42,958 nt of DNA from a virus, in the IMG/VR virus record IMGVR_UViG_3300046683_000382, positions 1-42,958 of that record; one strand, 5' to 3'. Numbering within the stretch: the stretch's first letter is position 1; each line of letters opens with the position of its first letter. Position numbers and translations under genes: made by a program. Below the pieces are notes generated by a model, which did no database searches, was not told the origin of the DNA, and worked only from the letters and a program-made list of their open reading frames with translations. Positions 4,838 to 26,581 of the stretch are shown here, piece after piece.

Positions 4838-7341
4838 GGGGACGCGACGATCAGAGCGACGACGCCCCGCTGCCGGGAAGGGTCCTCCAGAAGCAGTTCT
4901 ACCAGACCGGGACGTATCCCAGGGCGCTCTCGCTTCAGTCGATCGACGGGGGCAAGAACGTGCTGGCCACCCTTGCGATCGGGGAGCAGTTCCTGCTCGA
5001 CAAGAAGATCATCACCTTCCGGCTTTTCTACCTCTCGGCCAAGGAAGTGACCGCCGACCAGATTGTGACGAATTTTGGTCCCAATCAGAACGGCAACAAC
5101 TTCCCGTATTATCAAGACCTTACGTCCAAGGCGAAGTGGCTCGTGGACCTTCCGGTGGCCGGTCAGACCATGACCACCGTGATTTCCGGCAACCTCGTTT
5201 CGGACGGCGGGTGGATTTACGCCGTGGGTCTCGGCGTTCTGGGTCGCGTTCGGGCCGGAGCCACGACGGCCCCGGTGCCCATCCCGACCGCATCCGAGGC
5301 GTCCGCCGTCCCTCGTTTCGAGGTGAGGAACCCCCAGGTCTCGTTTTCTTCGGAGTGGGCCGACAACCTCCGGGCGAGAACGTACCGCGACACCATCACG
5401 ATCGCGTACCTTGCACCGAGTCCACTCGACACATTCCGGTATCTCCAAATCTGGATGTTCAATTATCAAAACAGCCAGCAGATGCGGGAGGGTCCGACCT
5501 TCTCATACCTCGGTGGACCCGGAGGGCAGGGCACGGGAACCTTCTACCTGGAGACCGACGACGCCATCAATCCGACGACGGGACGCTCGGTCTATCCGGC
5601 TCACGACGTTGTGTTCTATTTTGTTGCGCTGTCAGCCACTTTCGCCCATCGGTCGGACTTCATTCTCCCGACGCAGGGACAGGTCGTCCCCATCGTCGGA
5701 AGGGGTCCGCAGCCCTCGACCCGGACGCCGATTCCCTACGTCATTCTGCGTGGCGGAATCCTGGGGGGAATGACTCCGCCGATCTCGCCGCTCCCCTCCG
5801 GGCAGATCAAGGGCGCAAAGATTCAGATCACCTGGACGGAGATCAACGATCAGACAATCGATCATGTCAACATCTACCGCGCCAATCAGGGGACGGTGGG
5901 AACGCCCGTCACCAACGGGATGCCCGCCACCCCGTTTGCCGTCAGGACGAAGGACCAGATCATCCAGAGCGGCACGAATACTTGGGTGGACGCGGACTTC
6001 AACGACTACCGTGGGGGAGACCCGCAGTACTCCCCCACCAACCCCCCGGACGACTTCTCGGTCGTTGATCCCGCCAGATTTCAGTATTGGCTGGAGACGG
6101 TAAATCTGATGGGGATGCGCTCACTTCACCCGGAGACGACGGGGGTCATGATCCTGCGCGGCGTGGATGGCACGGATACCCACCCCGGGGCCACCTACCG
6201 GGACAACATCTTCAACTGCTTCTGGAACTGCCAGTTCTTTTCGAATGTCACGGTCGCGTCCGCTGCCGTTGCCCCGGCGAACCAAACGAGGGGCGCTCCC
6301 AACAACGCCAATGGGGACGCCTACGGGAAGTGGGACAACGACTCGGCGGGGACGGTCGGAACGGTCCCCCAATTCGTTTCTGACGGCACGAACCGGACCG
6401 GCGAGGTGGATATCTTCGCGAACACCTCCGCTGCCATCAATGATTTTGTACGAATTTTCAACGATTCTCCCCGGTCGGTTTTCGTGGTCGATGAAAGTCT
6501 CGTCTCGTCGGTTTTCATCGGGTACGACGGGGTGGGCAACGCCCCCTCGGAGTCGATCGCGCTCGGGATCGCGGAGGTCTCGGGCGGCGTCCAGATCGGC
6601 GGGTCGTACATCATCGCCTACTTCCCCGGGTCGATCCTGGGCAACGTGGGAACGGGCGGGAATCCCGTCAACTACGTCAGGATCGTCGGCTACGGAATCC
6701 TCGCGACCAACACCTACGATCACGTCCGATTCGCGATCGGGTTGAAGAATCAGGTCGGCGGCGCCGCATCCGGGATGATCCGGATCAAGCAGCCGATGGT
6801 CAACGGAGGAATCGAAGTGGCGAGCTGGACGGCGACGGTGCGGGACCAGGATTCTCCCGGAGGTCCCGGGACCGGGGGCGGGGGAAACCCCCCTCCCGAC
6901 GGCGGGCAATGCCCCCTCTCCGGGACGCTGGTCGAGACGATCGACGGGACCTTCCCGATCGACGTCGTTGCCCCGGGCGACATGATCTGGTCCCCCATCA
7001 CGAAGAGGGTGACCAAGGTCGTCCAGAACAAGGAGTATCCCTGCTCTGAAATCTGGTCGATCTCGACGGACGCGGGGACCAACCTCCAGGCGTCCCGCGA
7101 TCACCCGATCCTGATGAAGGGCCGATTCTGGAATCGCTTCAAACGGATCAGGGAAATCCGGCCCAACGACAAGATCATGGTCTATCGGCACGGGGTTCTC
7201 CGGGCCGAGACCGTCAAGGCCGTGTTCCAGGCGACCAACGCCAACGGCTTCGTTTTCATGCTGACCCTTGAGACCGACCACGTTTACTGCGCCAACGGGG
7301 TCGTCTCCCACAACAAGGATTATGGACACCAAGTTCCGTAG
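4834..7341 (+). CDS. Large virion protein with C-terminal Hint (bacterial intein-like) domain
   Basis: The product has 835 residues from GTG 4834, which overlaps the previous stop (GTGA). The first 690 residues are beta-rich, with a fibronectin-III-like stretch near 325-380, and end in a Gly/Pro linker. A Hint domain then runs from Cys693 to Asn827: block A is CPLSGTLVETIDG, the DVVAPGDMIWS turn follows, block B is QASRDHPIL with the catalytic His, and the C-terminal block is VVSHN. About 135 residues fits bacterial intein-like domains. The residue after His826-Asn827 is Lys rather than Cys, Ser or Thr, so cleavage is more likely than splicing. The gene sits among tail and internal virion genes; the role of its N-terminal part is unknown. 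Confidence 0.7.
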   Translation: MRGRDDQSDDAPLPGRVLQKQFYQTGTYPRALSLQSIDGGKNVLATLAIGEQFLLDKKIITFRLFYLSAKEVTADQIVTNFGPNQNGNNFPYYQDLTSKAKWLVDLPVAGQTMTTVISGNLVSDGGWIYAVGLGVLGRVRAGATTAPVPIPTASEASAVPRFEVRNPQVSFSSEWADNLRARTYRDTITIAYLAPSPLDTFRYLQIWMFNYQNSQQMREGPTFSYLGGPGGQGTGTFYLETDDAINPTTGRSVYPAHDVVFYFVALSATFAHRSDFILPTQGQVVPIVGRGPQPSTRTPIPYVILRGGILGGMTPPISPLPSGQIKGAKIQITWTEINDQTIDHVNIYRANQGTVGTPVTNGMPATPFAVRTKDQIIQSGTNTWVDADFNDYRGGDPQYSPTNPPDDFSVVDPARFQYWLETVNLMGMRSLHPETTGVMILRGVDGTDTHPGATYRDNIFNCFWNCQFFSNVTVASAAVAPANQTRGAPNNANGDAYGKWDNDSAGTVGTVPQFVSDGTNRTGEVDIFANTSAAINDFVRIFNDSPRSVFVVDESLVSSVFIGYDGVGNAPSESIALGIAEVSGGVQIGGSYIIAYFPGSILGNVGTGGNPVNYVRIVGYGILATNTYDHVRFAIGLKNQVGGAASGMIRIKQPMVNGGIEVASWTATVRDQDSPGGPGTGGGGNPPPDGGQCPLSGTLVETIDGTFPIDVVAPGDMIWSPITKRVTKVVQNKEYPCSEIWSISTDAGTNLQASRDHPILMKGRFWNRFKRIREIRPNDKIMVYRHGVLRAETVKAVFQATNANGFVFMLTLETDHVYCANGVVSHNKDYGHQVP

Positions 7342-7795
7342 CGACCGCCGCGTGCTGATGCACAAGGGGCGACCGCACATGGCCGTCTCGTTTGCCGTGC
7401 GCGGCAAGCGTGAGCATCCCGTCACCGTGTTCATTCCCCCGGAGAATGCCGACACCTTTGACCACGACAAGCTGATCGAGAACTGGCAGAAAACGATGGA
7501 TACGGTTGACGCCAACGACGAGCAATACCGAGCCTACGAAGGCAAGGAGCTGGACGTTTGTCATCGAAAGGTCACGATCTCCGACTTCAAGATCGTCACG
7601 CATGGTCTCTGCGATTTCGAGCTGGTCATGCTCTACCACGGCACCTGGGCCAGGCAATTCCATCACGGAAAAAAGTCCTTCCGTTCTACGTCGCCCGACG
7701 TTTTTCCGACCGCAGAGCAGATCGTCCGTAGGCTCGCGGAAGATTTCAAGGACGAGTGCGTGGACACCCACGCATTCGCGAAGTTCATTGAATAA
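7322..7795 (+). CDS. Hypothetical protein in the virion operon
   Basis: The product has 157 residues and starts inside the end of the Hint-domain gene (20-base overlap). An AAGGA lies close to the ATG; an internal ATG at 7358 is an alternative. It looks soluble and mixed alpha/beta (VSFAVRGKREHPVTVFIPP, then HRKVTISDFKIVTHG). I recognise no motif. Co-transcription with virion genes suggests a minor structural or assembly role. The region opposite the Hint-domain end is read in a different frame, so the genes share sequence without sharing protein. Confidence 0.55.
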   Translation: MDTKFRSDRRVLMHKGRPHMAVSFAVRGKREHPVTVFIPPENADTFDHDKLIENWQKTMDTVDANDEQYRAYEGKELDVCHRKVTISDFKIVTHGLCDFELVMLYHGTWARQFHHGKKSFRSTSPDVFPTAEQIVRRLAEDFKDECVDTHAFAKFIE

Positions 7796-7823
7796 GCTCC
7801 GATCCCGCGACCGGCGCCACCTG

Positions 7824-8414
7824 ATGGGCGGCATCTACGAGGACGAGGCCGTCAAGGGCGACTTTCGCTGCGGGATGCTCTTCCGCTCGACTTTCACCGA
7901 CGTCGTGTTCTACGAGTCCGAGATCGCCCAAGCCGATTTCTCAAACTCTACCTTCGTCCGGACGAGCTTCAGGGAATGCGACCTCTCGGGCACCAACTTC
8001 ACGATCTGCCGTTTCGAGGACTGCTCCTTCATCGGCTGCACGATGGACCTGGCCAACTTCCGGACGGCGTATTTCAAGAACTGCCTTATGAGCGAGGGTC
8101 GGGCGGAATACACGAATTTCTCCGATGCGATCGTGGATGGGATGACCTTCAACCTCTCGCTCCACGGCTCGGACCTTCGGTTTTCCTCGTCATCCGGTCT
8201 GGTCGATTTCCAGGATTCGAACCTCTGGGGCTGCTCGATCACGATCTCCTGCAAGACTTTCTTGGACGTGGCGATCTCGCGGAGATCATTGGAGCTTCTG
8301 GTCGGATTGCTCGCGACGACCAAGGGCAACGACGATCTTCGGGAGACGCTCGATTCGACAATTTCTGAACAGTACCGTAAGATGCTGGAAGCTCTGACTT
8401 TGAAGGAGTCCTGA
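7824..8414 (+). CDS. Pentapeptide-repeat protein
   Basis: The product has 196 residues from ATG 7824; an in-frame TTG at 7788 overlapping the previous stop would add 12 residues. Residues from about 19 to 110 contain consecutive pentapeptide units with a central Phe or Leu, such as ADFSN, TSFRE, CDLSG, TNFTI, CRFED, CSFIG and ANFRT. These would form a right-handed quadrilateral beta-helix. The C-terminal 60 residues are helical. Known pentapeptide proteins include DNA mimics that bind gyrase (Qnr, MfpA), but many have no known role. Its place between virion genes suggests either a virion component or a protein delivered with the DNA; neither is proven. Confidence 0.75.
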   Translation: MGGIYEDEAVKGDFRCGMLFRSTFTDVVFYESEIAQADFSNSTFVRTSFRECDLSGTNFTICRFEDCSFIGCTMDLANFRTAYFKNCLMSEGRAEYTNFSDAIVDGMTFNLSLHGSDLRFSSSSGLVDFQDSNLWGCSITISCKTFLDVAISRRSLELLVGLLATTKGNDDLRETLDSTISEQYRKMLEALTLKES

Positions 8415-9043
8415 TGGGCCAAACCGGCGGTCAGAAAGACGCGGGCAAGATCGCCGCCCAACAGGCGCAGGAAGAGACAGCCCTGTACAACATGGCAGAG
8501 CCCTCGATCCTGGCTTCGCTTTCGGGATTCGTTCAGGACTTGGGTGCCCCGGGCTCCGAACCCGCGTCGATCACCAGCGCGTTCAAGGAAATCCGAAGCG
8601 ACACCAACAAGGCTTACGCTGGCGCGGCCAAATCCTCCACCGCCACGGTCGAGCAGATCGCCAAGCAGGGCGGTAGCCGCATGGACCCCGGCGCCACGAA
8701 ATCCGCCAGCGATGAAATCCTCTTCTCGCTGGAGAAGAATCGTCGGGGAACGATGCGCGGCTTGGCGCAGCAGGAGACCGACGCCGCCATGTCGCAGAGG
8801 GATTTTGACCTTTCCTCGATTCTCGGAGTCGGAGAAGGGGGCGTTGGAGGGGCGTTCGGATTCCAGAATGATGCCCTGAACGCCGCTCGCCTGAACACCT
8901 CCAATCCCACGGGCGGCGCGATCTCTGGTGCCGCATCTGGTGCCGCGTTGGGTGCTCCCTATGCCGGTGCCACCTACGGTCTTTCCGTTCTGGCGGGCGC
9001 GCTGATCGGTGGCGGCATCGGCTACTACGCTGGCGGTGGGTAA
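8414..9043 (+). CDS. Probable internal virion protein with glycine-zipper membrane segment
   Basis: The product has 209 residues; its ATG overlaps the previous stop (TGATG) with AAGGAG upstream. It is Ala/Gly/Ser-rich and helical, and it ends in a Gly/Ala-rich hydrophobic stretch (GGAISGAASGAALGAPY, then LSVLAGALIGGGIGYYAG) that looks like a glycine-zipper transmembrane hairpin. Short-tailed phages often encode such a small ejection protein before two larger internal proteins, as in the T7 gp14-gp15-gp16 order, and the next three genes fit that order. The role is inferred from composition and order, not from homology. Confidence 0.55.
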   Translation: MGQTGGQKDAGKIAAQQAQEETALYNMAEPSILASLSGFVQDLGAPGSEPASITSAFKEIRSDTNKAYAGAAKSSTATVEQIAKQGGSRMDPGATKSASDEILFSLEKNRRGTMRGLAQQETDAAMSQRDFDLSSILGVGEGGVGGAFGFQNDALNAARLNTSNPTGGAISGAASGAALGAPYAGATYGLSVLAGALIGGGIGYYAGGG

Positions 9044-9693
9044 TGGGCGGCTCAACCAAACAGTCGCAACAGGCCACCGATCTCAATCGGAAGCTCTCGG
9101 CGCGTCAGTTTCAGACGGGGAGCCGTGCCCTTGGCGGTGGGCTTGAATACGGACTTGGAGAGCTGGCCTTCGACCAATCCGACAACAGGATGGAGCAGGA
9201 TATCGCGGCAAAGGAAACGGACGTCCTGGAAGGAGCCGCGAGCCGTCCGGTCGGTAGCACCCTTCTCGGGGCGACCAGGGATATCGAAAATCGCGAAGCC
9301 GCGAAGGCGATCGGAACATCGTCCGTCGCTGGCCAGAGGGTCACCGACGCGTTGGACGAGATCAACAAGTTGCACTCGACGCTCGCGGGTCACGGTCTCC
9401 GGACCACCGGACTTTCTTCGCAGGCGGGGGCGCTCGGTATTCAGGCTCTCTCCCTGGTTCCGAAGAATCCAAAGCTCTCGGAGGCTCTGGGAGTGGGGGC
9501 TGCCGGTGCGGCGGTTTACGGCGGACTGACGCAGCCCACCACCGCCCCGAACAAGCTCTCGATTGCGCCGCTCTCGGCAACGCAATTCTCCGGCTCTGAT
9601 ATCTCCACGATCGCCCCGAATATTTATACCGACCAGCAAGCGGCGGCGGCGACGTCCGGGGCCGCGTCGGCCTTCAACATGGGGCCGTACTAA
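9043..9693 (+). CDS. Probable internal virion protein
   Basis: The product has 216 residues, with start and stop coupled to both neighbours by TAATG overlaps. It is Ala/Gly/Ser/Gln-rich, with a helical middle (REAAKAIGTSSVAGQRVTDALDEINKL) and a weakly hydrophobic segment (LGVGAAGAAVYGGL). The composition matches the preceding protein and suggests the same ejection or internal-core class. I recognise no catalytic motif. Confidence 0.5.
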   Translation: MGGSTKQSQQATDLNRKLSARQFQTGSRALGGGLEYGLGELAFDQSDNRMEQDIAAKETDVLEGAASRPVGSTLLGATRDIENREAAKAIGTSSVAGQRVTDALDEINKLHSTLAGHGLRTTGLSSQAGALGIQALSLVPKNPKLSEALGVGAAGAAVYGGLTQPTTAPNKLSIAPLSATQFSGSDISTIAPNIYTDQQAAAATSGAASAFNMGPY

Positions 9694-11294
9694 TGCCTGA
9701 CCAGGGATTCTCTCTCGGCGGAATGGTGCAGCCTCCGGCGCAGAACGAGGCGGACGCCTTCCGTCAAGGTGCCAGCGAGGCGATGACCCCGATCATCGAC
9801 TATTTCACCCGTCGCGTGGAGGCCCAAAAGGACGCCGAGGACCAGGCGAAAATCAACGTCACGACGGATAGTCAGACCGGGATGGCCCATCTGGAGAATG
9901 TCCCGATCCCCTACCTCAACAAGATGGTCGAGGCAGCCGGGAAATTCCATCAGATTCAGGACGTTTACGAAAAGCAGATCATGCAGAAAACCGCCGAGAT
10001 CGCCCAAGCGCGTCGGCATCCCTTCGCGAACACGCTCGCGACCATCGCGGGGTCTCTCGCCCACAACGACCCCAACCCCATCACCCGGGGCCTCGGGGAG
10101 GCCGCGATCCGTCTGAACCCGCAGCCCGCGCAGCTTGAGGCGGAGCGCAATCAGCTTCTCGGAGACGAAGCCGGGATCGTCGGCGCGGAGGTTCGCACTT
10201 ACCAGGATATGTCGAAGTTCTACTCGGACTACGCCCGGGAGAACCGGCTGGAGCGCGGCGCCGAACTCGCCCAGAGGAAGGAAGATCGGATCGCGGAGGA
10301 CAACAAGCGCAAGGAGCGCGGGAAATTTATTGCCCAAGGGTACTCCCACGCTACTACCGGAGGGTTCAGCCCCGAAGGATTCGCGATCGAGGGTCGCTCT
10401 CTCGGGATTCCCGAAGGGGACATTAAATCCTACTCGGACGCCCTGATGCAGTCGCAGCAGCAAATCAAGGACGTCCACGATCAGAGGGAACTGCACCGCG
10501 ACGAACGTCTCCAGAAGGGCTATGACGAGAGGGAGAAGATCGCGAGGTTCCAGGCCGAGCAGGCGATGGCCCGACTCGACAAGACTCTCCAGGAGCGCGA
10601 CAAGCTGCGCGATCTCGCCGAGGAAAAACAGGCATCGAAGTTGGGGCAGCAGGAATTCACGAAGGAGATTCCCAAGCTCCAGGCGATGAACGAGGTTGAG
10701 GATTCGATCAACACCCTGCGCGGGCAGTTGAAGAAGATGGGAGATCGAGTTGGGCCAATCATCGGCAGCGTGCGCGGCGTATTTGGTGGCTCATTCCTCT
10801 CCGAGGAAGAGAACAAGATGCGGGCGCAGTTCTTCATCAACCTGAACGCCACCCGCCAACTGATTGACGGTGGCGCGAGGTTCTGGAACCCGACCGAGTA
10901 CAAGAACCTCTCAAACGTCCTTGAGCAGGCGACCAAGAGCGAGAAGGCCAACCTCGGAATCATGGACGCCTTGGACGACTTCAAGCGCCGCGAGCGTCAG
11001 GCCGTCGTGGATAGCAACCCGAACATCGACTGGAAGCCGCCCCAGATGAAGGCTGTTCTCGGTGGCGATGCCCCCGGGGTGCTGGCGAGGCATGACGCCT
11101 TGGTGAAAAAGTACACGGAACCAGATGCCGGTGGTGGTTTCGATACATCCGCCGTCCCGAAGGAACTCCAGGATTCGGTGTTTTTGAAGAAGGCGTCAAC
11201 CATGCCCGACGGAGATTATCCGGTCGAGTGGAAGGGCAAGAAATACAAGAAGGTCACGATCAAGGGAGGTCGCCCCGTTGCCGCAGTCGAGTAA
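9693..11294 (+). CDS. Long coiled-coil internal virion protein
   Basis: The product has 533 residues, coupled to the previous gene by TAATG. Residues from about 230 to 340 are highly charged heptad-like helix (QQIKDVHDQRELHRDERLQ, EKIARFQAEQAMARLDK), indicating a long coiled coil. The C-terminus (DGDYPVEWKGKKYKKVTIKGG) is a short basic beta-like domain. Length, charge and position after two small internal-protein candidates fit the ejected internal proteins of podoviruses. No lysozyme or transglycosylase motif is evident. Confidence 0.55.
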   Translation: MPDQGFSLGGMVQPPAQNEADAFRQGASEAMTPIIDYFTRRVEAQKDAEDQAKINVTTDSQTGMAHLENVPIPYLNKMVEAAGKFHQIQDVYEKQIMQKTAEIAQARRHPFANTLATIAGSLAHNDPNPITRGLGEAAIRLNPQPAQLEAERNQLLGDEAGIVGAEVRTYQDMSKFYSDYARENRLERGAELAQRKEDRIAEDNKRKERGKFIAQGYSHATTGGFSPEGFAIEGRSLGIPEGDIKSYSDALMQSQQQIKDVHDQRELHRDERLQKGYDEREKIARFQAEQAMARLDKTLQERDKLRDLAEEKQASKLGQQEFTKEIPKLQAMNEVEDSINTLRGQLKKMGDRVGPIIGSVRGVFGGSFLSEEENKMRAQFFINLNATRQLIDGGARFWNPTEYKNLSNVLEQATKSEKANLGIMDALDDFKRRERQAVVDSNPNIDWKPPQMKAVLGGDAPGVLARHDALVKKYTEPDAGGGFDTSAVPKELQDSVFLKKASTMPDGDYPVEWKGKKYKKVTIKGGRPVAAVE

Positions 11295-13176
11295 CGAGCC
11301 CGTATTCGGAGAGAAGCTGCCCGAGGGCGGCGATCCCTCCGGTGGCCCGATTTTCGGTGCGCCCATTGCCCAACAGGAGGGTAGGGCGATTGCTGCGACC
11401 AAGCCGTCGGTCATCAAGGGGCTCGCCCGTGGAGCCACGTCGGCACTTCCAGATCAGGCGATGTTCCTGTCTGACGTTCCTATTGTTGCCGGTCTCGCTG
11501 GCGGCGCCCTGGAGGGTGCGCGGCGATTGATCGACAACGTGTTCGATCTCCAGTTCCCGGGCGAGAAGAAGATGACGGCGAAGGAAATTGGTCATTCGAT
11601 GTACACGGAGGCGTGGCATCAGTTGGTCTTTTCCGGGGTTGCCAAAGCCTTCGGTCATGCAGTCGCCGGTATTCGTAACGTGGCGGTTTCGAAGGTCGCG
11701 CAAGCTGGTCAGAGGGCTCTCGAAAACCCAGAGGCGGCAAGGGCTCTTGAGATTGCCGAAACGAAGAAAATTCCATTGTCCCACGCCGAGATCACGCAAG
11801 GGACGATGCCCAAGCTGATCCAGAGAGTCGCGACGTCGCAGCCCCTCTCGAAAGACATTGCCGTTGCCGCAGAGAAGAAAACTACCGACCGCGTGATCTC
11901 TCTCTTGGATGAAATTCGCGCTCCGCTCGGGGCGCTCAAGGAGGGTCAAGCCACCGGGGAAATGGTTCAGGACGTTCTGACAAAGGGGGAAGAGAACTTT
12001 TCCAACGCAGCGAGAACTCTCTACAAAACCAACCGTGACGTGGCTTCCCAAGCCAAAATCACGATCCCTCGCAAAGGCATGATGCCGGTCGTTGACGATA
12101 TCGAAAAGGAAGTCAACGATTTCCAGGAATACTTCCACAAGATCGGCAACCTCGACCCCAGGATGGAAAACGCCATTGAGTCGATCCGTGGAGATATCGC
12201 AGAGGCCAGAAGCGTTGGCCCGACATTTGTCGATAAGAGTGGCAAGCCCCTCATCGAGAAAACTACCGCAAAGAAAACCTCACCTCCAGAAATTCCGTGG
12301 CACATCGCCGACAACTTTCGCCAATGGCTCAACGATGCGATTGACGCCAATATGCCCGGGACGTCTATGGCTGCCGCCAAAAGGATTCAGAAGAGCGTTA
12401 CCGAACTCATGGAGGGCGCGGCCAATAAGGCTGGCGGGGGCGTTCTTTCATCGTGGAAAGAGGCCCGTTCATTCTGGGAGAAGGGCAAGTCTATCTTTGA
12501 GGACAGCCTGTATCGCAGCGTGGTGACGTCCGCCCCGGAGGCGGTGGCAGAGTCAATCGGCCCGAGGGAATCCACAAAGCTGTCCAAGGTTCTTGAGGTC
12601 ATGAGGGACCCGAGAATGAGCGGCGGTATCGAGGGAAGCAAGAAGGCCGAGGATGCGCTTCGTCTCCGGTGGGTGGCCCATCACATCACGGGCGGCGACG
12701 AACCCACAAGAATGTCGATTGACCTGATGCAGGACAATCTGAAGAAAATGACGCCGGAATTCGCGAGGACCATGTTCGGGGGTTCCAAGGAGGCGGAGAC
12801 ATACCTGAAGGACCTCCGGGACATTGCCTTCGTCATGCAGAAGGGCAGGAAGGTCGTCAATCCCGGGATCGCCGGAACGCTCGCGGAGCAGCACACGGCG
12901 TCGATGATGTTCCGCTCGGCAATGTCGATGGCCCTGATGCGCTTCAAGTCGATTCCCTTCATGATCTCGACCCAGATGACGGGGCCGGTTCTCGCGAAAA
13001 TCGCCTTTGATCCCGCCGCCACGAAGCTGCTCTTGGAGGGGGCGTACATGGCCGAGAAAACCCCGTCGAAGGCCGTCAGCCTGATGTTCCGGTCGATTGA
13101 TCTCGTCATGAAAGAGGGGAAGCTCTATCGGCAGTTCCAGGATTCCAAAACGGCAGCGGCAGAACCCAAGGAATGA
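11278..13176 (+). CDS. Large internal virion protein
   Basis: The product has 632 residues. The start is TTG 11278, supported by a strong GGGAGGT Shine-Dalgarno sequence about eight bases upstream, inside the end of the preceding gene. The protein is mainly helical, with a Gly/Ala-rich segment near 45-75 (VPIVAGLAGGALEGARR) and a moderately hydrophobic region near 540-570. No enzymatic motif is visible. It is the longest of the four consecutive internal-protein candidates, and its position before the end of the late unit fits an ejection protein. Confidence 0.5.
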   Translation: MPQSSNEPVFGEKLPEGGDPSGGPIFGAPIAQQEGRAIAATKPSVIKGLARGATSALPDQAMFLSDVPIVAGLAGGALEGARRLIDNVFDLQFPGEKKMTAKEIGHSMYTEAWHQLVFSGVAKAFGHAVAGIRNVAVSKVAQAGQRALENPEAARALEIAETKKIPLSHAEITQGTMPKLIQRVATSQPLSKDIAVAAEKKTTDRVISLLDEIRAPLGALKEGQATGEMVQDVLTKGEENFSNAARTLYKTNRDVASQAKITIPRKGMMPVVDDIEKEVNDFQEYFHKIGNLDPRMENAIESIRGDIAEARSVGPTFVDKSGKPLIEKTTAKKTSPPEIPWHIADNFRQWLNDAIDANMPGTSMAAAKRIQKSVTELMEGAANKAGGGVLSSWKEARSFWEKGKSIFEDSLYRSVVTSAPEAVAESIGPRESTKLSKVLEVMRDPRMSGGIEGSKKAEDALRLRWVAHHITGGDEPTRMSIDLMQDNLKKMTPEFARTMFGGSKEAETYLKDLRDIAFVMQKGRKVVNPGIAGTLAEQHTASMMFRSAMSMALMRFKSIPFMISTQMTGPVLAKIAFDPAATKLLLEGAYMAEKTPSKAVSLMFRSIDLVMKEGKLYRQFQDSKTAAAEPKE

Positions 13177-14495
13177 GCAATTTCCTGCTCGTCTCTCCGT
13201 GCGGCGAATCCCTGATGCTTCTCGAAAACCTTCGGGCCTCCGGGCACAACGTCGTCATGTGGAATCCCCAACCCACCAAGGCGGGCGACGGGATCGTGTT
13301 CAAGACCGACGACCCGGAATCCTTCGCAGGACAGGCCGACGCGATCGTCTTTGACGACAACGGCAAGGGGTACATGGCTGACCGCTGGCGGGAGCGTGGA
13401 CTTCCGGTCTGGTGCGGCGGTACGTTTGCCGAAGCGATCGAGTACGACCGCCTCTACGGGCAGAAGGTCTTTGCCGAGAACGGAATTCCCGTCCCCGAGA
13501 CTTTCGAGGTTTCCTCGATCGGGGACGTGAAATCGGTTCTCAAGGCCGAGTTCTCCAAGAAGGAGAAGGTGGTCATCAAGGTGTCCGGAGAGGGCGGCGC
13601 TGGAACGTCGTTTTCCTTCTGCGCCACCGACTCCGAACAATGCGAGGATCAGGTTTCCCATTGGATTGATGACGGCCTTCTCCCGGGGGCCTGGACCGGC
13701 ATCCTCCAGAGGTTTGTCGAGGGGATCGAGGTCTCCATCGAGGCGTGGTGGAACGGATCAGCCTGGACCTATCCCAACATCACCATCGAGGAAAAGAAGT
13801 TCGCGTCAGGGAATCTCGGTCCCTCCGTCGGGTGTGCGTTCAACACCGTGGCGAGGATTTCGCCGACGTCCCGGCTCTTCCAGATTGCTCTTCAACCTCT
13901 TGGCCAACTCCTGAAGGATCGTGGGTACGTTGGCCAGATCGATACGAACACGATCGTAGATCGCGACGGAATCCCTCACGCGCTCGAATTCACGCCGCGT
14001 CCGGGATACGACGCTACGCCCACGCTCGTTTGGGGCGGGGGTCCCCGTTACGGTGATGCGGTACTTGCCGCCCTCCGTGGGGCAGACGTAGAGGAATTCG
14101 AAGGTGACGTCGCGAGTCGGAAAGGGAAGTACCTGGTTGGAGTCAGGGTCCATATTCCACCTTATCCTTTCGAAAGTAAGTCAGACGATCTCTCCGAGAA
14201 AGTTTACGAGACGGCCTACGGGGTTCCCATTGATGGGTGGGAGTCCGTAAGAGAGGACTTCTACCTCTATGATGCCTGTTACGACGGCGGGCGACTGGTC
14301 TGCGCCGGGACGAGTGGTATCGTTGGTATTGCGATGGGGGCAGGAGATTCCCCGGCTGACGCCGCACGAGCGGCATACCGAATCGCGGAGAAAATCCGGG
14401 TTCCCAACAAGAGCTATCGCGCCATCGACGGCGCAAGACGTGCAAACGATGCGATTCCGGAGCTGGTCGCTCTTGGACTCGTGAAAATCCTGTAA
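13173..14495 (+). CDS. ATP-grasp ligase, PurD (GAR synthetase)-like
   Basis: The product has 440 residues; its ATG overlaps the previous stop (ATGA). The order of elements matches phosphoribosylamine-glycine ligase: an N-terminal pre-ATP-grasp domain (SNFLLVSPCGESLML), the YDRLYGQKVFAENGIPVPE helix, a nucleotide-binding strand (VVIKVSGEGGAGTS), the ILQRFVEGIEVSIEAWWNG strand, and the metal-binding GIPHALEFTPRPGYD region. In that region PurD normally has E-F-N-x-R; here Asn is replaced by Thr. The length matches PurD (about 420-430). No other purine gene is near. The late-operon position, directly after ejection proteins, suggests ligation of an amine to a carboxylate on another substrate, but this is inference. 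Confidence 0.75.
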   Translation: MSNFLLVSPCGESLMLLENLRASGHNVVMWNPQPTKAGDGIVFKTDDPESFAGQADAIVFDDNGKGYMADRWRERGLPVWCGGTFAEAIEYDRLYGQKVFAENGIPVPETFEVSSIGDVKSVLKAEFSKKEKVVIKVSGEGGAGTSFSFCATDSEQCEDQVSHWIDDGLLPGAWTGILQRFVEGIEVSIEAWWNGSAWTYPNITIEEKKFASGNLGPSVGCAFNTVARISPTSRLFQIALQPLGQLLKDRGYVGQIDTNTIVDRDGIPHALEFTPRPGYDATPTLVWGGGPRYGDAVLAALRGADVEEFEGDVASRKGKYLVGVRVHIPPYPFESKSDDLSEKVYETAYGVPIDGWESVREDFYLYDACYDGGRLVCAGTSGIVGIAMGAGDSPADAARAAYRIAEKIRVPNKSYRAIDGARRANDAIPELVALGLVKIL

Positions 14496-17086: not shown

Positions 17087-17324
17087 TCATTTCCTCCTGG
17101 ATCGCGGTCAGGTGATCCTCGACCATCTTGACGTGGCGATCCGTTTCGTCCAGCCTCATTTTCAGAATCTTCCAGCCTTCGGCGTATGCCCCCAAGATGC
17201 CCCCCATCCCCCTCATGGTCTGGGCGATCACCTCTTCCACCGGGACGGGGGACGGCGGGGGCGCGGCCTCCGGTTGCGGAGTGATTCCGGCTTCTCTCAA
17301 TTTGCGGGGTCCCTTTTTCTTCAT
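17055..17324 (-). CDS. Hypothetical helical protein
   Basis: The product has 89 residues from ATG 17324, which makes an ATGA overlap with the methyltransferase stop and has GGAGG just upstream. A basic N-terminus and a Pro-rich stretch (PEAAPPPSPVPVEE) precede one long amphipathic helix (AYAEGWKILKMRLDETDRHV). Its last 32 bases overlap the ERF start in another frame. A role as an ERF partner is possible but rests only on coupling. Confidence 0.55.
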   Translation of the reverse strand: MKKKGPRKLREAGITPQPEAAPPPSPVPVEEVIAQTMRGMGGILGAYAEGWKILKMRLDETDRHVKMVEDHLTAIQEEMNGKRIIVPGS

Positions 17325-17923
17325 GATCCTCCCCATTGGTCGGCCATCGCGTTTGCGATGCCGGGATACGTTCTGGCTCGGTCGGCAGCCCTCGTCGGAC
17401 TCGGGCCGAGCTTGTTTTGTCCCGAAGGGGTCTGGTTTGCCCTTCTCGCTTTCCTGCCACCCGGAAGCTCGTTGGTCGGCTCAAGCAACGGCAGACCCTT
17501 TAGCCAGAGACACGTCGCCTTGCTCGCATCCTCACCAAATTGCCACGGGTGGATGATCTGGTCGGGCCTCCGGTACGCCGTCGAGATTCTTCCGATCGGA
17601 TTTTCGAGAGCGATCTTCGGAATCCGGTGCGCGATTGACCCCACCCCCATGAGGTTGAAGATAAAAAGCATCGACTCATGGGTCCTCTCTTCCCGCCCGG
17701 GAATCCGGGTGTTCCAATGGAGTCCCGACGACGCGAGATAAGTGCATGGAGGATGGGCGATCATCATGTCCCATCCGTCCTCAAGGATTTCGCACACGTC
17801 CCCAACGATGTGCGGCCCCGGCCTTTCCGAGGGCACGAGATCGCAGGAAACGGCTTCATGCCCCCGGGCGATGAAGGCGTCCCTGACGATTCCCGAGAAT
17901 TCACACGCTACGAGAACCCTCAC
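17321..17923 (-). CDS. DNA cytosine methyltransferase-like protein
   Basis: The product has 200 residues from GTG 17923, supported by GGAGGAAAG directly upstream and a GTGA overlap with the nuclease gene. An SAM-binding N-terminus (RVLVACEFSGIVRDAF) resembles motif I of C5-methyltransferases. HEAVSCDL follows as motif II-like, and MIAHPPCTYLA carries the Pro-Pro-Cys of motif IV (C60 as the candidate nucleophile). ALENPIGRIS and the C-terminal TRAADRARTYPGIANAMADQW are typical of a widespread short phage family. It lacks an obvious target-recognition domain and is much shorter than full Dcm-type enzymes, so its specificity is unknown. It may protect phage DNA from restriction. Confidence 0.8.
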   Translation of the reverse strand: MRVLVACEFSGIVRDAFIARGHEAVSCDLVPSERPGPHIVGDVCEILEDGWDMMIAHPPCTYLASSGLHWNTRIPGREERTHESMLFIFNLMGVGSIAHRIPKIALENPIGRISTAYRRPDQIIHPWQFGEDASKATCLWLKGLPLLEPTNELPGGRKARRANQTPSGQNKLGPSPTRAADRARTYPGIANAMADQWGGS

Positions 17924-18765
17924 CTTTCCTCCAATGCCACCGACACCTGGGAACGCTTGCCGTAGGGACAAACCGATTCCCATGCGCCGCACCACTTCTG
18001 GGAGCAGACCCACCCGTTGGTAGAACCCTTGTCCACGGGCAGCATCAACCCCTGCTTGAATACCTCCGAGAGATTGGCGACGACCGACTCCAGGACCTCG
18101 TGCTGGCGTTCTCCGCGCCACGACTTGACCACCTCGAAATCGGGAACGGGGTTCTTCTTGTAGGCATTCACCTCGTCCACGAATTGGTCCTGCTCGCCCG
18201 TTTTCTGGGCCTTCAACGCCGCGTAGGTCGAATACTGATAGTCCGTATGGACCTGTTCCGGGGTACGGCGCCGGGAGCCCCGGCGGGTCAGGTCACGAGT
18301 CTTGAGATCGAGAATCCGGTTGTCCGAGACGTCCACGTCGAGATGCCCGATCACGGTCACGCCGCCCAATTCCCCGATGATCTCGGTTTCGACGGCGCGG
18401 CCAGAGAGAAGGTCCCGGTTCTCGTTGTACTTGTCGAGCATCGACATTCCCGTATCGGAATAGACCCCGAACGCCTTGGCGACACCCCCGAGATCGAGGA
18501 TTTCCGGATCGTCCGGGTTGACCACGCGGGACGACTGCTCCAGGTCGTCGTATAGGCATTCCTTCAGCTTCTCGATCGGCTCATAGGAGCCGGTCCGAAT
18601 CTTGACCTTCTGATCCCTTTCCAAGATCGTCCGGTGGACGGCAGAGCCGAATTCCGTGGCGATCCCCGGAGGAAGCCTCAACTTCTCGACGTAGAAGTAG
18701 TACGCCCGCATCTGGCAGAGCATCGCGCTCTTGATGAAAGACGGGCGCATCACGAAGTCGGTCAT
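17920..18765 (-). CDS. Cas4/RecB-like PD-(D/E)XK exonuclease with four-cysteine signature
   Basis: The product has 281 residues from ATG 18765 (ATGA overlap); a GTG at 18771 would add two residues. The motifs in order are Cys17 (KSAMLCQMRAYYFY), GSAVH at 40-44, GHLDVD with Asp143, DLK at 153-155, the QYSTYAAL helix at 177-184, and a C-terminal triplet of cysteines (C254, C259, C266). One N-terminal and three C-terminal cysteines match the Fe-S cluster arrangement of Cas4 and AddB-type nucleases. It probably resects double-strand ends to feed the ERF annealing protein two genes downstream. Confidence 0.85.
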   Translation of the reverse strand: MTDFVMRPSFIKSAMLCQMRAYYFYVEKLRLPPGIATEFGSAVHRTILERDQKVKIRTGSYEPIEKLKECLYDDLEQSSRVVNPDDPEILDLGGVAKAFGVYSDTGMSMLDKYNENRDLLSGRAVETEIIGELGGVTVIGHLDVDVSDNRILDLKTRDLTRRGSRRRTPEQVHTDYQYSTYAALKAQKTGEQDQFVDEVNAYKKNPVPDFEVVKSWRGERQHEVLESVVANLSEVFKQGLMLPVDKGSTNGWVCSQKWCGAWESVCPYGKRSQVSVALEER

Positions 18766-21889: not shown

Positions 21890-21936
21890 CCGGTGGTGGT
21901 GGTGCCACCGCCGCCTGGTGGTTGTGCTACCACCGG
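21890..21936. repeat. Nested GGTGGT palindromes
   Basis: CCGGTGGT (21890-21897) pairs with ACCACCGG (21929-21936). Inside lie GGTGG-TG-CCACC (21898-21909) and GGTGGT-TGTGCT-ACCACC (21917-21934). The unit resembles the palindromes clustered at 26286-26493. Confidence 0.6.
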
Positions 21937-21990: not shown

Positions 21991-22089
21991 CTACTTTTTC
22001 TTTCCTCCTTTCCGCTTCTCTGCCAGAAGCCTGTCGATTCGCTTCGCCCTGGCTTTGGCGATCACCTTCCAATTGTTTTTTACCTTCAT
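21991..22089 (-). CDS. 32-residue basic peptide
   Basis: ATG 22089 makes an ATGA overlap with the glutamine amidotransferase stop. The peptide is strongly basic and helical (NNWKVIAKARAKRIDRLLA, ending in KGGKKK). It is the last gene of the amidoligase unit and may bind nucleic acid or act as a substrate or partner; this is open. Confidence 0.5.
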   Translation of the reverse strand: MKVKNNWKVIAKARAKRIDRLLAEKRKGGKKK

Positions 22090-23255
22090 GAGATCGCCGT
22101 TTCCCTCCCCAGACACGAGTCGCAGATGATCATGTTCTGGTATGGAGTCCAGCCGTCTCCCGCGCCAATCGGCATATCGCACCGATCGCAGACGGGAGAA
22201 CCGGAACCTTTCAGAACGGCCTGGGCTTCGGAAGTCTGGAATTCAAGCTCGTCGGCTTCGTCCCATTTCCCCGATTGGATAGCCTGCTCGACTTCCTTCG
22301 GCGTAGGAACGGCGGTCAACGGGCGAACCGGCTTTCCGAACCGCTGCCAATCCCCGTAGTTGAACGTACCGCCGTGTTCCTTGTAATCGAGATACGCTTT
22401 CGCAGGAACGGCGTCCTTGGATTCTCCGGCGTAATTAACCCATTTGCCGGATCGATCCTTGATCCAATATCCACCGTGTTTCCCCGTGAAAACGTCCTCA
22501 TCGACGCGACCATCCCATCCGTAGGAACCGGAATAGCTGGAAGCGTTCGCCTCTTTCAGTTTGACCTTCATCTTTGAATGAAAGAGGGTTCCATCCTCGA
22601 CGTAATAGAGGCGCCTTTGCTTGACGGTGTAGAACCCATGATCGGCAATCCCCGCCAATCCGCACGCCATGTCAATCGCGTCCCTGGTAGATGCCCAGAC
22701 GACGCCATTGCAGACCTTCGTGTCTTTCGGATCATTGAAGATTCCCGCGATGTAGAGGTCACCACGACCCCATCTCGCCATGTAAACCCTCTGCGGTTCG
22801 TCGGAACGGATGTAGGTAATCGCGCCGTATCCCTCGATATCGGAGCAATCCTTTCCGTTTGCGATCTGCCAGAAGATATGCATGGAGTCCACCGGAAGAT
22901 CGATTGAATACTTCCGGTTTAATTCGTCATCGTTCCAGATGATCCCATTGTGCGCCCCGATCACGTTGCATTCCGGACCTTCGATGTAGAACGGATGGGA
23001 ATTTTCCTCCGTGACCGCGCCCGTAGTGGCTTGGCGAGTGTGTCCCAGAACCGCCCCATGTTTGGAGAGTTCTGCCGCATTGACTCCAATCGTAGGATTT
23101 CCTACGCCCCGTTTGGTCTCACCTCCCGGAACGTGGTATCCCCACGATTGATCGCCCCGATCCTCCATTTCCCGAATCAGGATGGCGAGCAGCGCAGAAC
23201 GCTGCGACCTGGAGGACGATTTCTCGAACCCCTGTATTCCGTACAATCCGCACAT
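22086..23255 (-). CDS. Class II glutamine amidotransferase (Ntn hydrolase) with zinc ribbon
   Basis: The product has 389 residues. It begins MCGLYGIQGF, so Cys2 becomes the N-terminal nucleophile after Met removal. GHTRQATTG (71-79, Arg74), NSHPF (85-89), GAHNGIIWND (100-109) and the DSMHIFW region match the glutaminase sites of GlmS, PurF and AsnB. No synthase domain follows. The C-terminus instead has a CDRC...CDSC zinc ribbon (about 353-378). It would release ammonia from glutamine, or hydrolyse a related amide, for the amidoligase encoded just upstream; the two genes overlap by TAATG. Amidoligases of the PF12224 family are known for such neighbours. Confidence 0.88.
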   Translation of the reverse strand: MCGLYGIQGFEKSSSRSQRSALLAILIREMEDRGDQSWGYHVPGGETKRGVGNPTIGVNAAELSKHGAVLGHTRQATTGAVTEENSHPFYIEGPECNVIGAHNGIIWNDDELNRKYSIDLPVDSMHIFWQIANGKDCSDIEGYGAITYIRSDEPQRVYMARWGRGDLYIAGIFNDPKDTKVCNGVVWASTRDAIDMACGLAGIADHGFYTVKQRRLYYVEDGTLFHSKMKVKLKEANASSYSGSYGWDGRVDEDVFTGKHGGYWIKDRSGKWVNYAGESKDAVPAKAYLDYKEHGGTFNYGDWQRFGKPVRPLTAVPTPKEVEQAIQSGKWDEADELEFQTSEAQAVLKGSGSPVCDRCDMPIGAGDGWTPYQNMIICDSCLGRETAIS

Positions 23256-24655
23256 TAGAATCCCCTCTCTCTCTGTTGGTTGGCCTGTTGTCTCGCCTCA
23301 TTGCAGACTCCGCAATTGCATCCGGTTCGCGCCGCGTAATCTCTCAGAGATTCGTTCTCCGGCGGTTCCGGTTCCTCCGGTTCTTCGTAGGAATCCGCCG
23401 GTTCTTCGTCCTCTCCCGAATCCTCGGGAGGTTCCGGGAACCGGAAATTCTTCGCTACGCCGAATCGTGAGGTCCGATCATTGATGTATTCCAGAGAGAG
23501 GGAGGGCATCGGAACGGATCGAAGGATATCCAGAGGGGTTCCAGACAGGGCGATGATTTCCCGCTCGGGGGTTTTCATGGCGTAATCTAAAATTGCCGCC
23601 CACATCATTGCCCATGCCTGCATTCTCTCGGGGCGTGTCGAACCCTGGTGAATACGACACTCGACTGTCCCACGGTAAACCCATGAATCGAGATTCAATC
23701 CCCGGTATCTGTCGGACATTCCCTTTTGCGCTTTCCCGTGGCGGTATCGATCGGTTAAAACCTCTGTCGGCTCGGCGTCATCGCCGGTGAATCCTTCGCC
23801 GTAGAGGGCACCGATGATTCCCTTTTTGGATTCCTTCGGAACCGCGCCCGTCTTTCGCAATGCGTCTGCGAGATACTTCCCGCATGGAGAGCAGTAGGAA
23901 TTTCCTCTGCGCCATTGCGGAACGATGGAATACAAGGCCAATTCGATCTTCTCGTAGAGAAAGATCAATCGCCTCATGTCGTACCATCTGAAATCTCTCG
24001 CGTCAATGTGGCAATGCATTCCTGCATCGGAGTAACAGCTACCTCCGTTATTCCTGATAGCCTCTCCCAGATCGGAGAGTTGATTCAGAAGGAGGTCACC
24101 GTTTGCCGGAGAGGTATTGATCTCTACGGCGGTATCCCGATGCAGAGAACCGTCTGTCACGATCGAGCAGGACCATTGATACGCGGCACGATTCGTAAAA
24201 GACCCTGGAGTCCGGAATTCCGACACTTCTAATTCCAGAGATACGAAACGCTTCGAAGGATTGCGAGAGAATTCCTTTTTGAGCTTGGACGATTCCCAAA
24301 ACTTCAGAGGTTGCGTCCAGACTTGCGGGAAATAATTCCGCAGCCGGGGCTCCCCTGGGTCATGGGAAATATCCTCGTGGTTTTCTCTCTGCGTTTCGGC
24401 AATGCGTTTCTTGCAACACTTGAAACAGATTCCGCATTGCTTGCACGTTTGAACACCGAAAAGAACGGTTCCGCAGCGGCACCGGCACGCGCAATGTGAT
24501 TTGCATGACGCGCATATCGTGCAGCGTTTCGGTCCGACTTTCCTGCATTCAGAATTGGAATATACGTTCCGCCTGGAACCGTTATCCCAATTCCTTTGCG
24601 CGACGTAATTGCATCGCGGCGTTTTTACTTTCGCCGCAGCCTTTGCGTCTGTCAC
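23255..24655 (-). CDS. Amidoligase (COOH-NH2 ligase, PF12224-like) with Cys-rich N-terminus
   Basis: The product has 466 residues from GTG 24655, with AGGAGG six bases upstream. Residues 37-81 hold at least eleven cysteines in CxxC-type spacing (CTICASC, CACRCRC, CKQCGICFKCC), a probable multi-zinc domain. The ligase core follows: SLELEV (139-144) for metal binding, VTDGSL (166-171), Glu178, SDAGMHCHID (209-218), then LNLDSWVYRGTVECRIHQGS (320-339) with Asn321, Arg328, Glu332 and Arg334. These match the glutamine-synthetase-like amidoligase pattern. The tail is Glu/Pro-rich and ends with CNCGVC. It probably joins an amine to a carboxylate with ATP; the substrate is unknown. Confidence 0.85.
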   Translation of the reverse strand: MTDAKAAAKVKTPRCNYVAQRNWDNGSRRNVYSNSECRKVGPKRCTICASCKSHCACRCRCGTVLFGVQTCKQCGICFKCCKKRIAETQRENHEDISHDPGEPRLRNYFPQVWTQPLKFWESSKLKKEFSRNPSKRFVSLELEVSEFRTPGSFTNRAAYQWSCSIVTDGSLHRDTAVEINTSPANGDLLLNQLSDLGEAIRNNGGSCYSDAGMHCHIDARDFRWYDMRRLIFLYEKIELALYSIVPQWRRGNSYCSPCGKYLADALRKTGAVPKESKKGIIGALYGEGFTGDDAEPTEVLTDRYRHGKAQKGMSDRYRGLNLDSWVYRGTVECRIHQGSTRPERMQAWAMMWAAILDYAMKTPEREIIALSGTPLDILRSVPMPSLSLEYINDRTSRFGVAKNFRFPEPPEDSGEDEEPADSYEEPEEPEPPENESLRDYAARTGCNCGVCNEARQQANQQRERGF

Positions 24656-24664
24656 GATTTCCTC

Positions 24665-24677
24665 CTGGTACTACCAG
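24665..24677 (-). promoter_or_regulatory. GGTAGTACC palindrome touching the amidoligase ribosome-binding site
   Basis: On the minus strand CTGGT-AGT-ACCAG runs directly into the AGGAGG of the amidoligase gene. The 11-mer TGGTAGTACCA is identical to three copies in the 26.3-26.5 kb cluster. It could act as an operator or an RNA site controlling translation. Confidence 0.5.
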
Positions 24678-24922
24678 CCCGTCATTTCCCTGATTTCCTT
24701 TGGAATTTTCAGGGTTCCATCGGCTTCGTGTATGACGGCTTCGGCGTATTCCAGAATGGAAACCGCGAGTTCAATCGCTTGTTCCATCGAGAGCGTTTTC
24801 TCAATTCGTTGGGTAAGATCATCAACCCGGAGAACGTATCCTCCGCGATGATCTTTGCGGAAACGGATTCCGTTCATTTCGAATCCGTCATACTCCGCGA
24901 TGATTACCACCGGTTTTATCAC
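24671..24922 (-). CDS. Hypothetical small protein
   Basis: The product has 83 residues if started at GTG 24922, where a GGGGAG abuts the codon. GTG 24910 would place the same Shine-Dalgarno sequence at a wider distance and is an alternative. It is alpha/beta with an N-terminal VVIIAEYDGFEM strand and a helix (EKTLSMEQAIELAVSILEYAEA). No family is recognised. Confidence 0.5.
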   Translation of the reverse strand: MIKPVVIIAEYDGFEMNGIRFRKDHRGGYVLRVDDLTQRIEKTLSMEQAIELAVSILEYAEAVIHEADGTLKIPKEIREMTGW

Positions 24923-24974: not shown

Positions 24975-25175
24975 TCAGTTTCCGTTCAATTCCAGATCGC
25001 CCTGGGTCCAGCAATACCAGAAAAAGAAATCTTGAAACTTCGGATCGAGCCCGTCTCTCAATTCCAGAACGCAACGCCAGCAGGTAGCGGTAACATCGTG
25101 AATTGTGGAACCGGCGTTGACCTGGAATCTGCCGCAGACGTCGCAGAAGAACCGCCAATCGTTTACGGTTCTCAT
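24975..25175 (-). CDS. Small zinc-ribbon protein
   Basis: The product has 66 residues with CDVC and CWRC pairs about 20 residues apart, typical of a zinc ribbon, and an aromatic C-terminus (FQDFFFWYCW). The ATG overlaps the previous stop (ATGA). A second frame over the same bases lacks such features and is rejected. The 52 bases after it (24923-24974) hold nothing recognisable. Confidence 0.6.
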   Translation of the reverse strand: MRTVNDWRFFCDVCGRFQVNAGSTIHDVTATCWRCVLELRDGLDPKFQDFFFWYCWTQGDLELNGN

Positions 25176-25417
25176 ACGAACAGCGGCTCATCGTTGTAGT
25201 AGGCGGATTCGTTGGAATCGTCCACTACTTCGATGGTCCCGCGCCTGGCCAATTCCATCCATCCGTACACAGCGTTGACGCCGCAGAATGGGCAGGTTCC
25301 CATTGCGACGTCCGGATCAATCGTTGACACCGTTTCGTCGCATGAGAGGCAGGCTCCTTCGTTGGGGTCACCAGAGAAGTAGAATTCCCTGGCGTCTAAT
25401 TCGATTACCATTTTCAT
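25172..25417 (-). CDS. Small acidic zinc-ribbon protein
   Basis: The product has 81 residues with CLSC and CPFC pairs, and is acidic (DPNEG, EVVDDSNES). GGGAG precedes the ATG. The coupled neighbour is also a zinc ribbon, so the two may form a pair. No function is recognised. Confidence 0.6.
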   Translation of the reverse strand: MKMVIELDAREFYFSGDPNEGACLSCDETVSTIDPDVAMGTCPFCGVNAVYGWMELARRGTIEVVDDSNESAYYNDEPLFV

Positions 25418-25465
25418 CGCTCCCTGGCGGGAGGATAAAACACGCGAAATCCTGGTTACTTTTCC

Positions 25466-25490
25466 CTACCGGCAGGATTGATGCATCGGC
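25466..25490. repeat. Inverted repeat, distal copy
   Basis: These 25 bases are the reverse complement of 25872-25896 with one mismatch. They begin CTACCGGCAG and end GATGCATCGGC. The copy lies 14 bases beyond the stop codon of the gene at 25504-25857. Confidence 0.85.
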
Positions 25491-25503: not shown

Positions 25504-25857
25504 TTACTTTCCGCTGTTGGCTGCGGTTTGTTCGGCTTTGTCGGCTGCGATTTTGTCGGCTGCGAGTTTCGTCGCGTGCGCTTTCGCATCGGCCAGCTTC
25601 GCGGCTGTCTCGATTCTTTCGTCCTTATTCATCAGGGTCCGAATCGGGCGATCGAGCGTGTCGGCGGTCTGCCGGAATTTCTTCGCTTCCTCACGGGAGG
25701 ATACCGTTGTGCGTCCCCGTAGTTTCTGGTCCTGTTGGAAGCAATACTCTTGCACGTGCGAGAGAATGGCAGCGACGCCTCTCACGGCTCCACCGTTGCG
25801 GACGATGATTTTTTCGATTTCGGCAATGGTCGTTTCCTCAAGCGTAGGAATCGTCAT
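25504..25857 (-). CDS. Hypothetical Ala/Lys-rich helical protein framed by inverted repeats
   Basis: The product has 117 residues from ATG 25857, with AGAGG upstream. It is almost wholly helical: an N-terminal domain (EIEKIIVRNGGAVRGVAAIL, then EYCFQQDQKLRG) and an Ala/Lys/Asp-rich C-terminus (ADAKAHATKLAADKIAADKAE), which looks like a coiled coil or nucleic-acid-binding tail. It is the first gene of the amidoligase unit. The gene is framed by a near-perfect 25-base inverted repeat (25466-25490 and 25872-25896), the upstream copy lying 15 bases before the start codon. Confidence 0.5.
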   Translation of the reverse strand: MTIPTLEETTIAEIEKIIVRNGGAVRGVAAILSHVQEYCFQQDQKLRGRTTVSSREEAKKFRQTADTLDRPIRTLMNKDERIETAAKLADAKAHATKLAADKIAADKAEQTAANSGK

Positions 25858-25871
25858 GGTATTTGACCTCT

Positions 25872-25896
25872 GCCGATGCATCAATTCTGCCGGTAG
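25872..25896. repeat. Inverted repeat, proximal copy
   Basis: This is the partner of 25466-25490 (24 of 25 bases complementary; one more matching base at 25897). It contains the palindrome GATGCATC. In the leftward transcript it lies in the leader, just before the Shine-Dalgarno sequence of the 25857 gene. Confidence 0.85.
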
Positions 25897-25992
25897 GATG
25901 ATTGTTTTCGAGGTACGCTGACCGGAGTGCCTCTCCGTATTTCCTGACCTATTGCCGCTATCAGGCGCCGTACCCTTATCAGAGAACCCTCA

Positions 25993-26285: not shown

Positions 26286-26493
26286 GTAGTACCACTACCA
26301 GGGCCAGGAGCGTCCACTTATCGAGAATCCCGATATCGGGAATCCCGATAATGGGACGAGCCATCTGGTGATGGTAGTACCACTACCGGGGTAGGCTCCC
26401 GGTAGTGTCGCTACCAGGTGACAGTCGTGGTAGTACCACTACCGCGTCCCGGTGGTGGTAGTGCCACTACCAGCCGGTGGTGGTAGTACCACC
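26286..26493. repeat. Cluster of GGTAGT/ACTACC palindromes
   Basis: Units lie at 26286-26298 (GTAGT-ACC-ACTAC), 26373-26387, 26401-26415 (GGTAG-TGTCG-CTACC), 26429-26443, 26457-26471 (TGGTAGTG-C-CACTACCA when extended) and 26479-26493 (GGTGGT-AGT-ACCACC). The 11-mer TGGTAGTACCA occurs at 26372, 26428 and 26481. Spacing is irregular, so this is not a CRISPR array. Confidence 0.75.
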
Positions 26494-26581
26494 GCCTCCG
26501 GGGCTCGGGGCTCTCCCCTGTTCACCCCCCAAGGGGGATCGGAACTGGAAAACGGACAGGGGTAACCTCCCCTCTCGACAC

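Follow-up and report, generated by a model that had tools for sequence, protein, structure and literature searches.

A coupled amidoligase and class II glutaminase gene pair with cysteine-rich modules in a complete tailed-phage genome

The gene pair and its genomic setting

The window, that is, the whole stretch of 42,958 bases that was analysed, is a virus record carrying a 127-base direct terminal repeat, which is why it is treated as a complete genome. Its plus strand encodes terminase and the major capsid protein, while a minus-strand block encodes an ERF protein, a DUF3799 PD-(D/E)XK nuclease and a VRR-NUC protein; judged by this gene content, the block is probably the early (replication and recombination) module. 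Inside it lies a gene pair that a sequence-only reading of the same DNA had described as a PF12224-like amidoligase and a class II glutaminase overlapping by TAATG. The coordinates, strand and overlap given there proved exact (Table 1), and the Pfam matches of both proteins lie above cut-off. Searches with the PADLOC anti-phage defence profiles gave no match for the pair.

The same reading had placed two small zinc-ribbon proteins ahead of the pair as members of the unit. Both genes exist and both products carry CxxC motifs, but their membership did not hold up: neither the 66-aa nor the 81-aa protein has relatives in the related pair loci, and they are therefore not counted as parts of the system. 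The zinc-ribbon matches of the 81-aa protein are weak and sub-threshold.

Other elements of the genome are recorded here as separate observations. Palindromes of the type GGTGGTGGTAGTACCACC, spaced 22–28 bases apart, form a cluster at 26286–26519, in a gene-poor stretch upstream of the presumed early block, and one related copy stands at 21890–21935, directly downstream of the pair; these palindromes could be operators or an origin. A 26-base inverted repeat (25465–25490 and 25872–25897, 96% complementary) encloses a small gene at 25504–25884. In the structural block, the 930-aa protein encoded at 4549–7341 (+) has a C-terminal intein/Hint-like domain (PF14890, E 1.1e-5, below cut-off), which begins with CPLSGTLVET and ends with VVSHNKDYGHQVP exactly at the C-terminus, and this protein may cut itself. 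At the end of the same block lies a PurD-like ATP-grasp gene (13173–14495, +; TIGR00877, E 2.9e-10, below cut-off), whose sole relative among annotated phages is found in MW202796. It was considered as a third partner and rejected, as no relative of it occurs near any other pair. The protein encoded at 17321–18121 (−) contains HPPCTYLASSG, which recalls a methyltransferase catalytic motif, and has no Pfam or NCBIfam match.

Table 1. Features of the amidoligase/glutaminase locus, in window coordinates
Feature	Position	Strand	Details and basis
Class II glutamine amidotransferase gene	22086..23255	−	389 aa; PF13522 and PF13230 above cut-off
Glutaminase C-terminal ribbon	22113..22190	−	residues 356-381, CxxC-18-CxxC, Cys 356/359/378/381; sequence
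Glutaminase (Ntn-hydrolase) domain	22566..23255	−	residues 1-230: Cys2, R74, N103, G104, D123
TAATG stop/start overlap between the amidoligase and glutaminase genes	23253..23257	−	1 nt common to both; sequence
Amidoligase gene	23255..24655	−	466 aa, GTG start at 24655; PF12224, phrog_2443, AlphaFold, Foldseek
Amidoligase C-terminal Cys trio	23303..23320	−	CNCGVC, residues 446-451; sequence
Amidoligase catalytic core	23456..24280	−	residues 126-400: E141, E143, D168, S170, E178, H214, H216, R249, N321, E332, R334
Amidoligase Cys array	24413..24547	−	residues 37-81, 13 Cys; CTICASCKSHCACRCRC then CKQCGICFKCC
Amidoligase ribosome-binding site	24661..24666	−	AGGAGG; sequence
83-aa protein	24671..24922	−	no Cys; directly upstream of the amidoligase
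Small CxxC..CxxC protein	24975..25175	−	66 aa, CDVC..CWRC; upstream of the pair, same direction
Small zinc-ribbon-like protein	25172..25417	−	81 aa, CLSC..CPFC; overlaps the 66-aa gene by 4 nt

Folds and active sites of the two proteins

Residues 175–354 of the amidoligase match PF12224 (Amidoligase_2) with an E-value of 1.6e-13 and 51.5 bits against a cut-off of 22 (52.2 bits in the genome-wide search), and the phrog_2443 amidoligase profile matches the protein with an E-value of 3.2e-20. Among 96 distinct amidoligases aligned, and gaps aside, H214, R249, N321, E332 and R334 are invariant and E141, E143, D168, S170, E178 and H216 nearly so. The catalytic core is modelled by AlphaFold with a pLDDT over 90, and Foldseek places YbdK first (E 2.4e-5), followed by glutamine synthetases, gamma-glutamylmethylamide synthetase, plant glutamate-cysteine ligase and Dop/PafA. 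The TM-scores of these matches are low, in part from about 100 disordered residues in the model, and the fold assignment is therefore based on the E-value, the probability and the agreement of many superfamily members. On this basis, the amidoligase is assigned a fold of the glutamine-synthetase/GCS type, and the Glu, His and Arg residues that go with it are conserved. The CNCGVC trio near its C-terminus was not found in a ten-sequence alignment of near relatives.

The partner protein matches GATase_6 (PF13522; E 7e-8, 33 bits, cut-off 27) and GATase_4 (PF13230; 24.2 bits, cut-off 23), and its family profile, run against the PDB, matches GlmS with an E-value of 2e-30, with PurF and AsnB also matched. 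Most of the predicted model of the glutaminase domain has a pLDDT over 90, and Foldseek aligns it with the glutaminase domain of GlmS (E 1.1e-11); EgtC, a hydrolase of the glutaminase fold, is also among the matches (E 2e-8). Across 105 aligned homologues, H72, R74, N103, G104 and D123 occur without exception, and Cys2 is kept in 101, the other four being gaps. The protein carries the class II signature: a Cys follows the initiator Met, and the glutamine-site residues Arg, Asn-Gly and Asp are all in place. The residues that the sequence-only reading had singled out, Cys2 and those of the SLELEV, DGS and ECR motifs, are present and conserved.

Gene coupling and cysteine-rich modules among relatives

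A scan of IMG/VR with the amidoligase as a single protein gave no match, and the relatives there were obtained with small alignments as queries, in scans that yielded up to 80 loci for either protein, from which identical proteins were then removed. Among the distinct glutaminase loci listed, 65 of 68 have an amidoligase beside the glutaminase, always on the same strand and within 700 bp in 62 cases, so that the co-conservation of the two genes expected from the sequence-only reading is borne out, in a set that was seeded from paired loci and is thus biased towards paired members. Two of the three exceptions end close to the glutaminase (L134 and L165), and the third (L163) has a PF14395 ligase instead. 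The 1-nt stop/start overlap recurs in five related phages (L019, L037, L071, L090 and L102), making six with the window. In the other direction the coupling is looser: a glutaminase is found in 42 of the 81 amidoligase loci listed, and the remaining 39 are without one within the available DNA, which suggests that an amine can also reach the ligase from elsewhere. Judged from these gene neighbourhoods, the glutaminase appears to depend on the ligase, whereas the ligase can apparently do without the glutaminase.

No fused ligase–glutaminase protein was found among the related loci. PF14395 and RimK-like ATP-grasp genes lie near the pair in 13 distinct related loci, and the complete window genome has no match to PF14395 or RimK. 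Gene arrangements among the relatives vary: one locus (L092) has six consecutive amidoligase genes and a single glutaminase, three (L036, L040 and L073) have a ligase–glutaminase–ligase order, and two (L063 and L071) have two tandem pairs.

The Cys-rich additions on both proteins had been noted from the sequence alone, with at least eleven Cys in residues 37–81 of the ligase and a C-terminal ribbon on the glutaminase; we count 13 Cys in the former (binomial p about 3e-11 versus the remainder of the protein), and the latter is a CxxC-18-CxxC motif. In near relatives, the N-terminal array of the ligase is built from one to four copies of the unit CxxCxxCx(2-3)CxCx(1-2)CxxC, a loose form of which occurs in 13 of 100 distinct amidoligases, the window counted, and in none of 200 shuffles of the first 100 residues of the window amidoligase. 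This repeat marks one branch of the amidoligase family. Searches with five N-terminal regions gave no Pfam match above cut-off for the array, known zinc-ribbon and LIM families included, and profile similarity to LIM chains is weak (E 0.0013). AlphaFold gives no usable model of the array (pLDDT under 50). A DNA-pattern scan for the unit gave chiefly reading frames of low complexity, with a single plausible protein (L207) among them, and is uninformative about other contexts of the unit. A scan of genome contigs returned three loci, one of which (L172) has the amidoligase/glutaminase pair. The latter locus, at 7452–10223 of an Elusimicrobia MAG contig, encodes an amidoligase whose N-terminus has a tandem duplication of the Cys unit. 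The Cys modules of both proteins probably bind zinc, or they could bind Fe-S instead.

A CxxC-n-CxxC tail is present in 38 of the 105 glutaminase homologues. With thresholds of our own choosing (at least 6 Cys with 3 CxxC for the ligase, 4 Cys with 2 CxxC for the glutaminase), 100 pairs comprise 48 amidoligases with a Cys-rich N-terminus in this broad sense and 38 partner glutaminases with a C-terminal Cys tail; both modules occur together in 34 pairs, the ligase module only in 14, the glutaminase module only in 4 and neither in 48 (odds ratio 29). On the ligase-core tree, the ligase Cys module changes state about six times, which leaves too few independent pairs and shows mainly common descent of a clade trait. 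We therefore rejected this co-occurrence as an argument for contact: the joint presence of the modules mostly reflects shared ancestry and alone is no sign that the two proteins touch.

Possible function and comparison with known systems

Because an intact glutamine site stands beside an ATP-dependent carboxylate-amine ligase, the simplest reading of the pair would be a two-part amidotransferase, and we see about an even chance that the two proteins together make up a single amide-forming enzyme, dependent on glutamine and ATP and encoded in the presumed early module of a tailed phage. In such an enzyme, the glutaminase would split L-glutamine with Cys2 as the nucleophile to yield ammonia, while the amidoligase, with ATP and Mg2+, would activate a carboxylate as an acyl phosphate and join it to the glutamine-derived ammonia to give an amide. 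The Cys modules are probably zinc-bound parts that dock one subunit on the other, bind the target, or do both. This target would most likely be peptide-like, such as a peptidoglycan stem, a small peptide or a protein; the sequence-only reading had named a phage protein, a host protein or peptidoglycan, and all three stay candidates. The amidotransferase reading is favoured by the family and fold of both proteins, by the nearest solved relatives of the glutaminase by sequence (GlmS, PurF and AsnB), which donate ammonia, by the position of the glutaminase nearly always beside the amidoligase, with overlapping genes in six phages and conserved catalytic residues, and by the precedent of MurT/GatD (PMC6085368). 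It is weakened by the lack of any fusion among the loci, by the ligases without a glutaminase, by the fold match to EgtC and by the chance that the Cys modules hold Fe-S in place of zinc. A more specific form, in which a phage-specific amidotransferase recruits a macromolecular target through the repeated Cys array and so amidates a protein or nucleic acid of the host at an early stage of infection, seems to us quite unlikely; such a modification would be one that is not known from phages so far.

The main rival to an amidotransferase is a gamma-glutamylation cycle, in which the ligase would couple an amine to glutamate or to some other amino acid, and the glutaminase-like protein, acting as a hydrolase, would later take the gamma-glutamyl group off again, as in EgtA/EgtC; we regard it as possible, if tentative. 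Ergothioneine synthesis offers the EgtA/EgtC precedent (PMC10805701), and the fold matches are consistent with it, YbdK being the best for the ligase, with plant glutamate-cysteine ligase among the next, and EgtC being one for the glutaminase. R74 and D123 would suit the binding of a gamma-glutamyl head group as well, the related phage GP100 has a gene annotated as gamma-glutamyl hydrolase, and phage UFV-P2 has a GGCT/AIG2 gene (PMC3890496). However, EgtC is absent from the sequence matches of the glutaminase, where GlmS, PurF and AsnB are present, and the fixed coupling of the genes, with its stop/start overlap, points to a single complex more than to separate steps of a cycle. Another proposal concerns the target and purpose and is compatible with the amidotransferase mechanism: the pair would be a reduced form of the peptidoglycan-modification module of phiEco32/LUZ24, altering the host wall and blocking superinfection, which is unlikely in our judgement. 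The amidoligase and class II glutaminase families are the same as in that module, PF14395 and RimK-like ATP-grasp genes accompany the pair in the 13 related loci, and the module has been called a putative peptidoglycan modification set (PMC11945000) and linked to a superinfection block (PMC10580990). The wall role is nevertheless a prediction in both papers, and PF14395 and RimK are missing from the complete genome, although a PurD-like ATP-grasp gene lies elsewhere in it.

It is very improbable that the pair amidates a carboxylated base in DNA, the activity proposed for those CmoY relatives that have a glutamine-hydrolysing domain and act on 5-carboxymethylcytosine. ATP-dependent amide ligases acting on 5cxmC do occur in phages, and a glutaminase domain is present in one large cluster of the ligases (PMC12783734); in the window, the pair sits among the DNA-handling genes for ERF, the DUF3799 nuclease and VRR-NUC, and an HPPC motif occurs in the protein encoded at 17321–18121 (−). 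CmoY, however, is an asparagine-synthetase-like ligase of a different fold, and a base-modification role is unlikely because neither CmoA (TIGR00740) nor a DNA cytosine methylase (PF00145) is matched anywhere in the complete genome.

If the Cys modules of the preferred amidotransferase are docking or targeting parts, pull-downs with them could lead to the substrate. The two-gene version lacks the two extra ligases and is thus the form most easily purified and assayed. This matters for a pair whose roles, in the literature examined, have been assigned only by prediction. The amidoligase/glutaminase pair itself is of an already known kind that is widespread in phages, and the association of this ligase family with glutamine amidotransferase-like neighbours, as stated in the sequence-only reading, agrees with its presence in LUZ24- and phiEco32-type phages, in which two further ligases go with it. 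Within the tools and literature examined, the measured co-conservation, the minimal two-gene form in a complete genome and the Cys repeat of its own kind are new.

In the parts of PMC3890496 and PMC10580990 that relay Iyer et al. (2009), LUZ24-like and phiEco32-like phages are described as having an amidoligase and a class II glutaminase. As in the window, a PF12224 ligase and a GATase_6 glutaminase lie close together in the early module; in LUZ24-like phages the unit additionally comprises genes for a PF14395 COOH-NH2 ligase and an ATP-grasp protein (PMC3890496), whereas the window genome has no PF14395 or RimK match and differs further in the N-terminal Cys array of its ligase and its directly overlapping genes. 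The nearest annotated phage pair is that of Caudoviricetes sp. ctUh1700 (MW202637), which has the same gene order, the same families and a Cys-rich region before the ligase core, but shares about 29–34% identity with the window proteins, has a 43-aa ORF between the genes and has a glutaminase without the CxxC-n-CxxC tail. EgtA/EgtC likewise combines a glutamate-cysteine-ligase-type enzyme with a glutaminase-fold protein, but EgtC removes a gamma-glutamyl group, and its likeness to the window glutaminase is at the fold level only.

MurT is a Mur ligase and GatD is a class I (triad) glutaminase. In MurT/GatD, a peptidoglycan amidotransferase, the ligase has a Cys-rich, zinc-ribbon-like insertion that makes up part of its contact with the glutaminase, and channelling of ammonia is probable (PMC6085368). 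The logic of ligase plus glutaminase is the same as in the window pair, whereas neither protein is homologous to its counterpart there, so that MurT/GatD is a system that the pair may work like rather than one to which it belongs.
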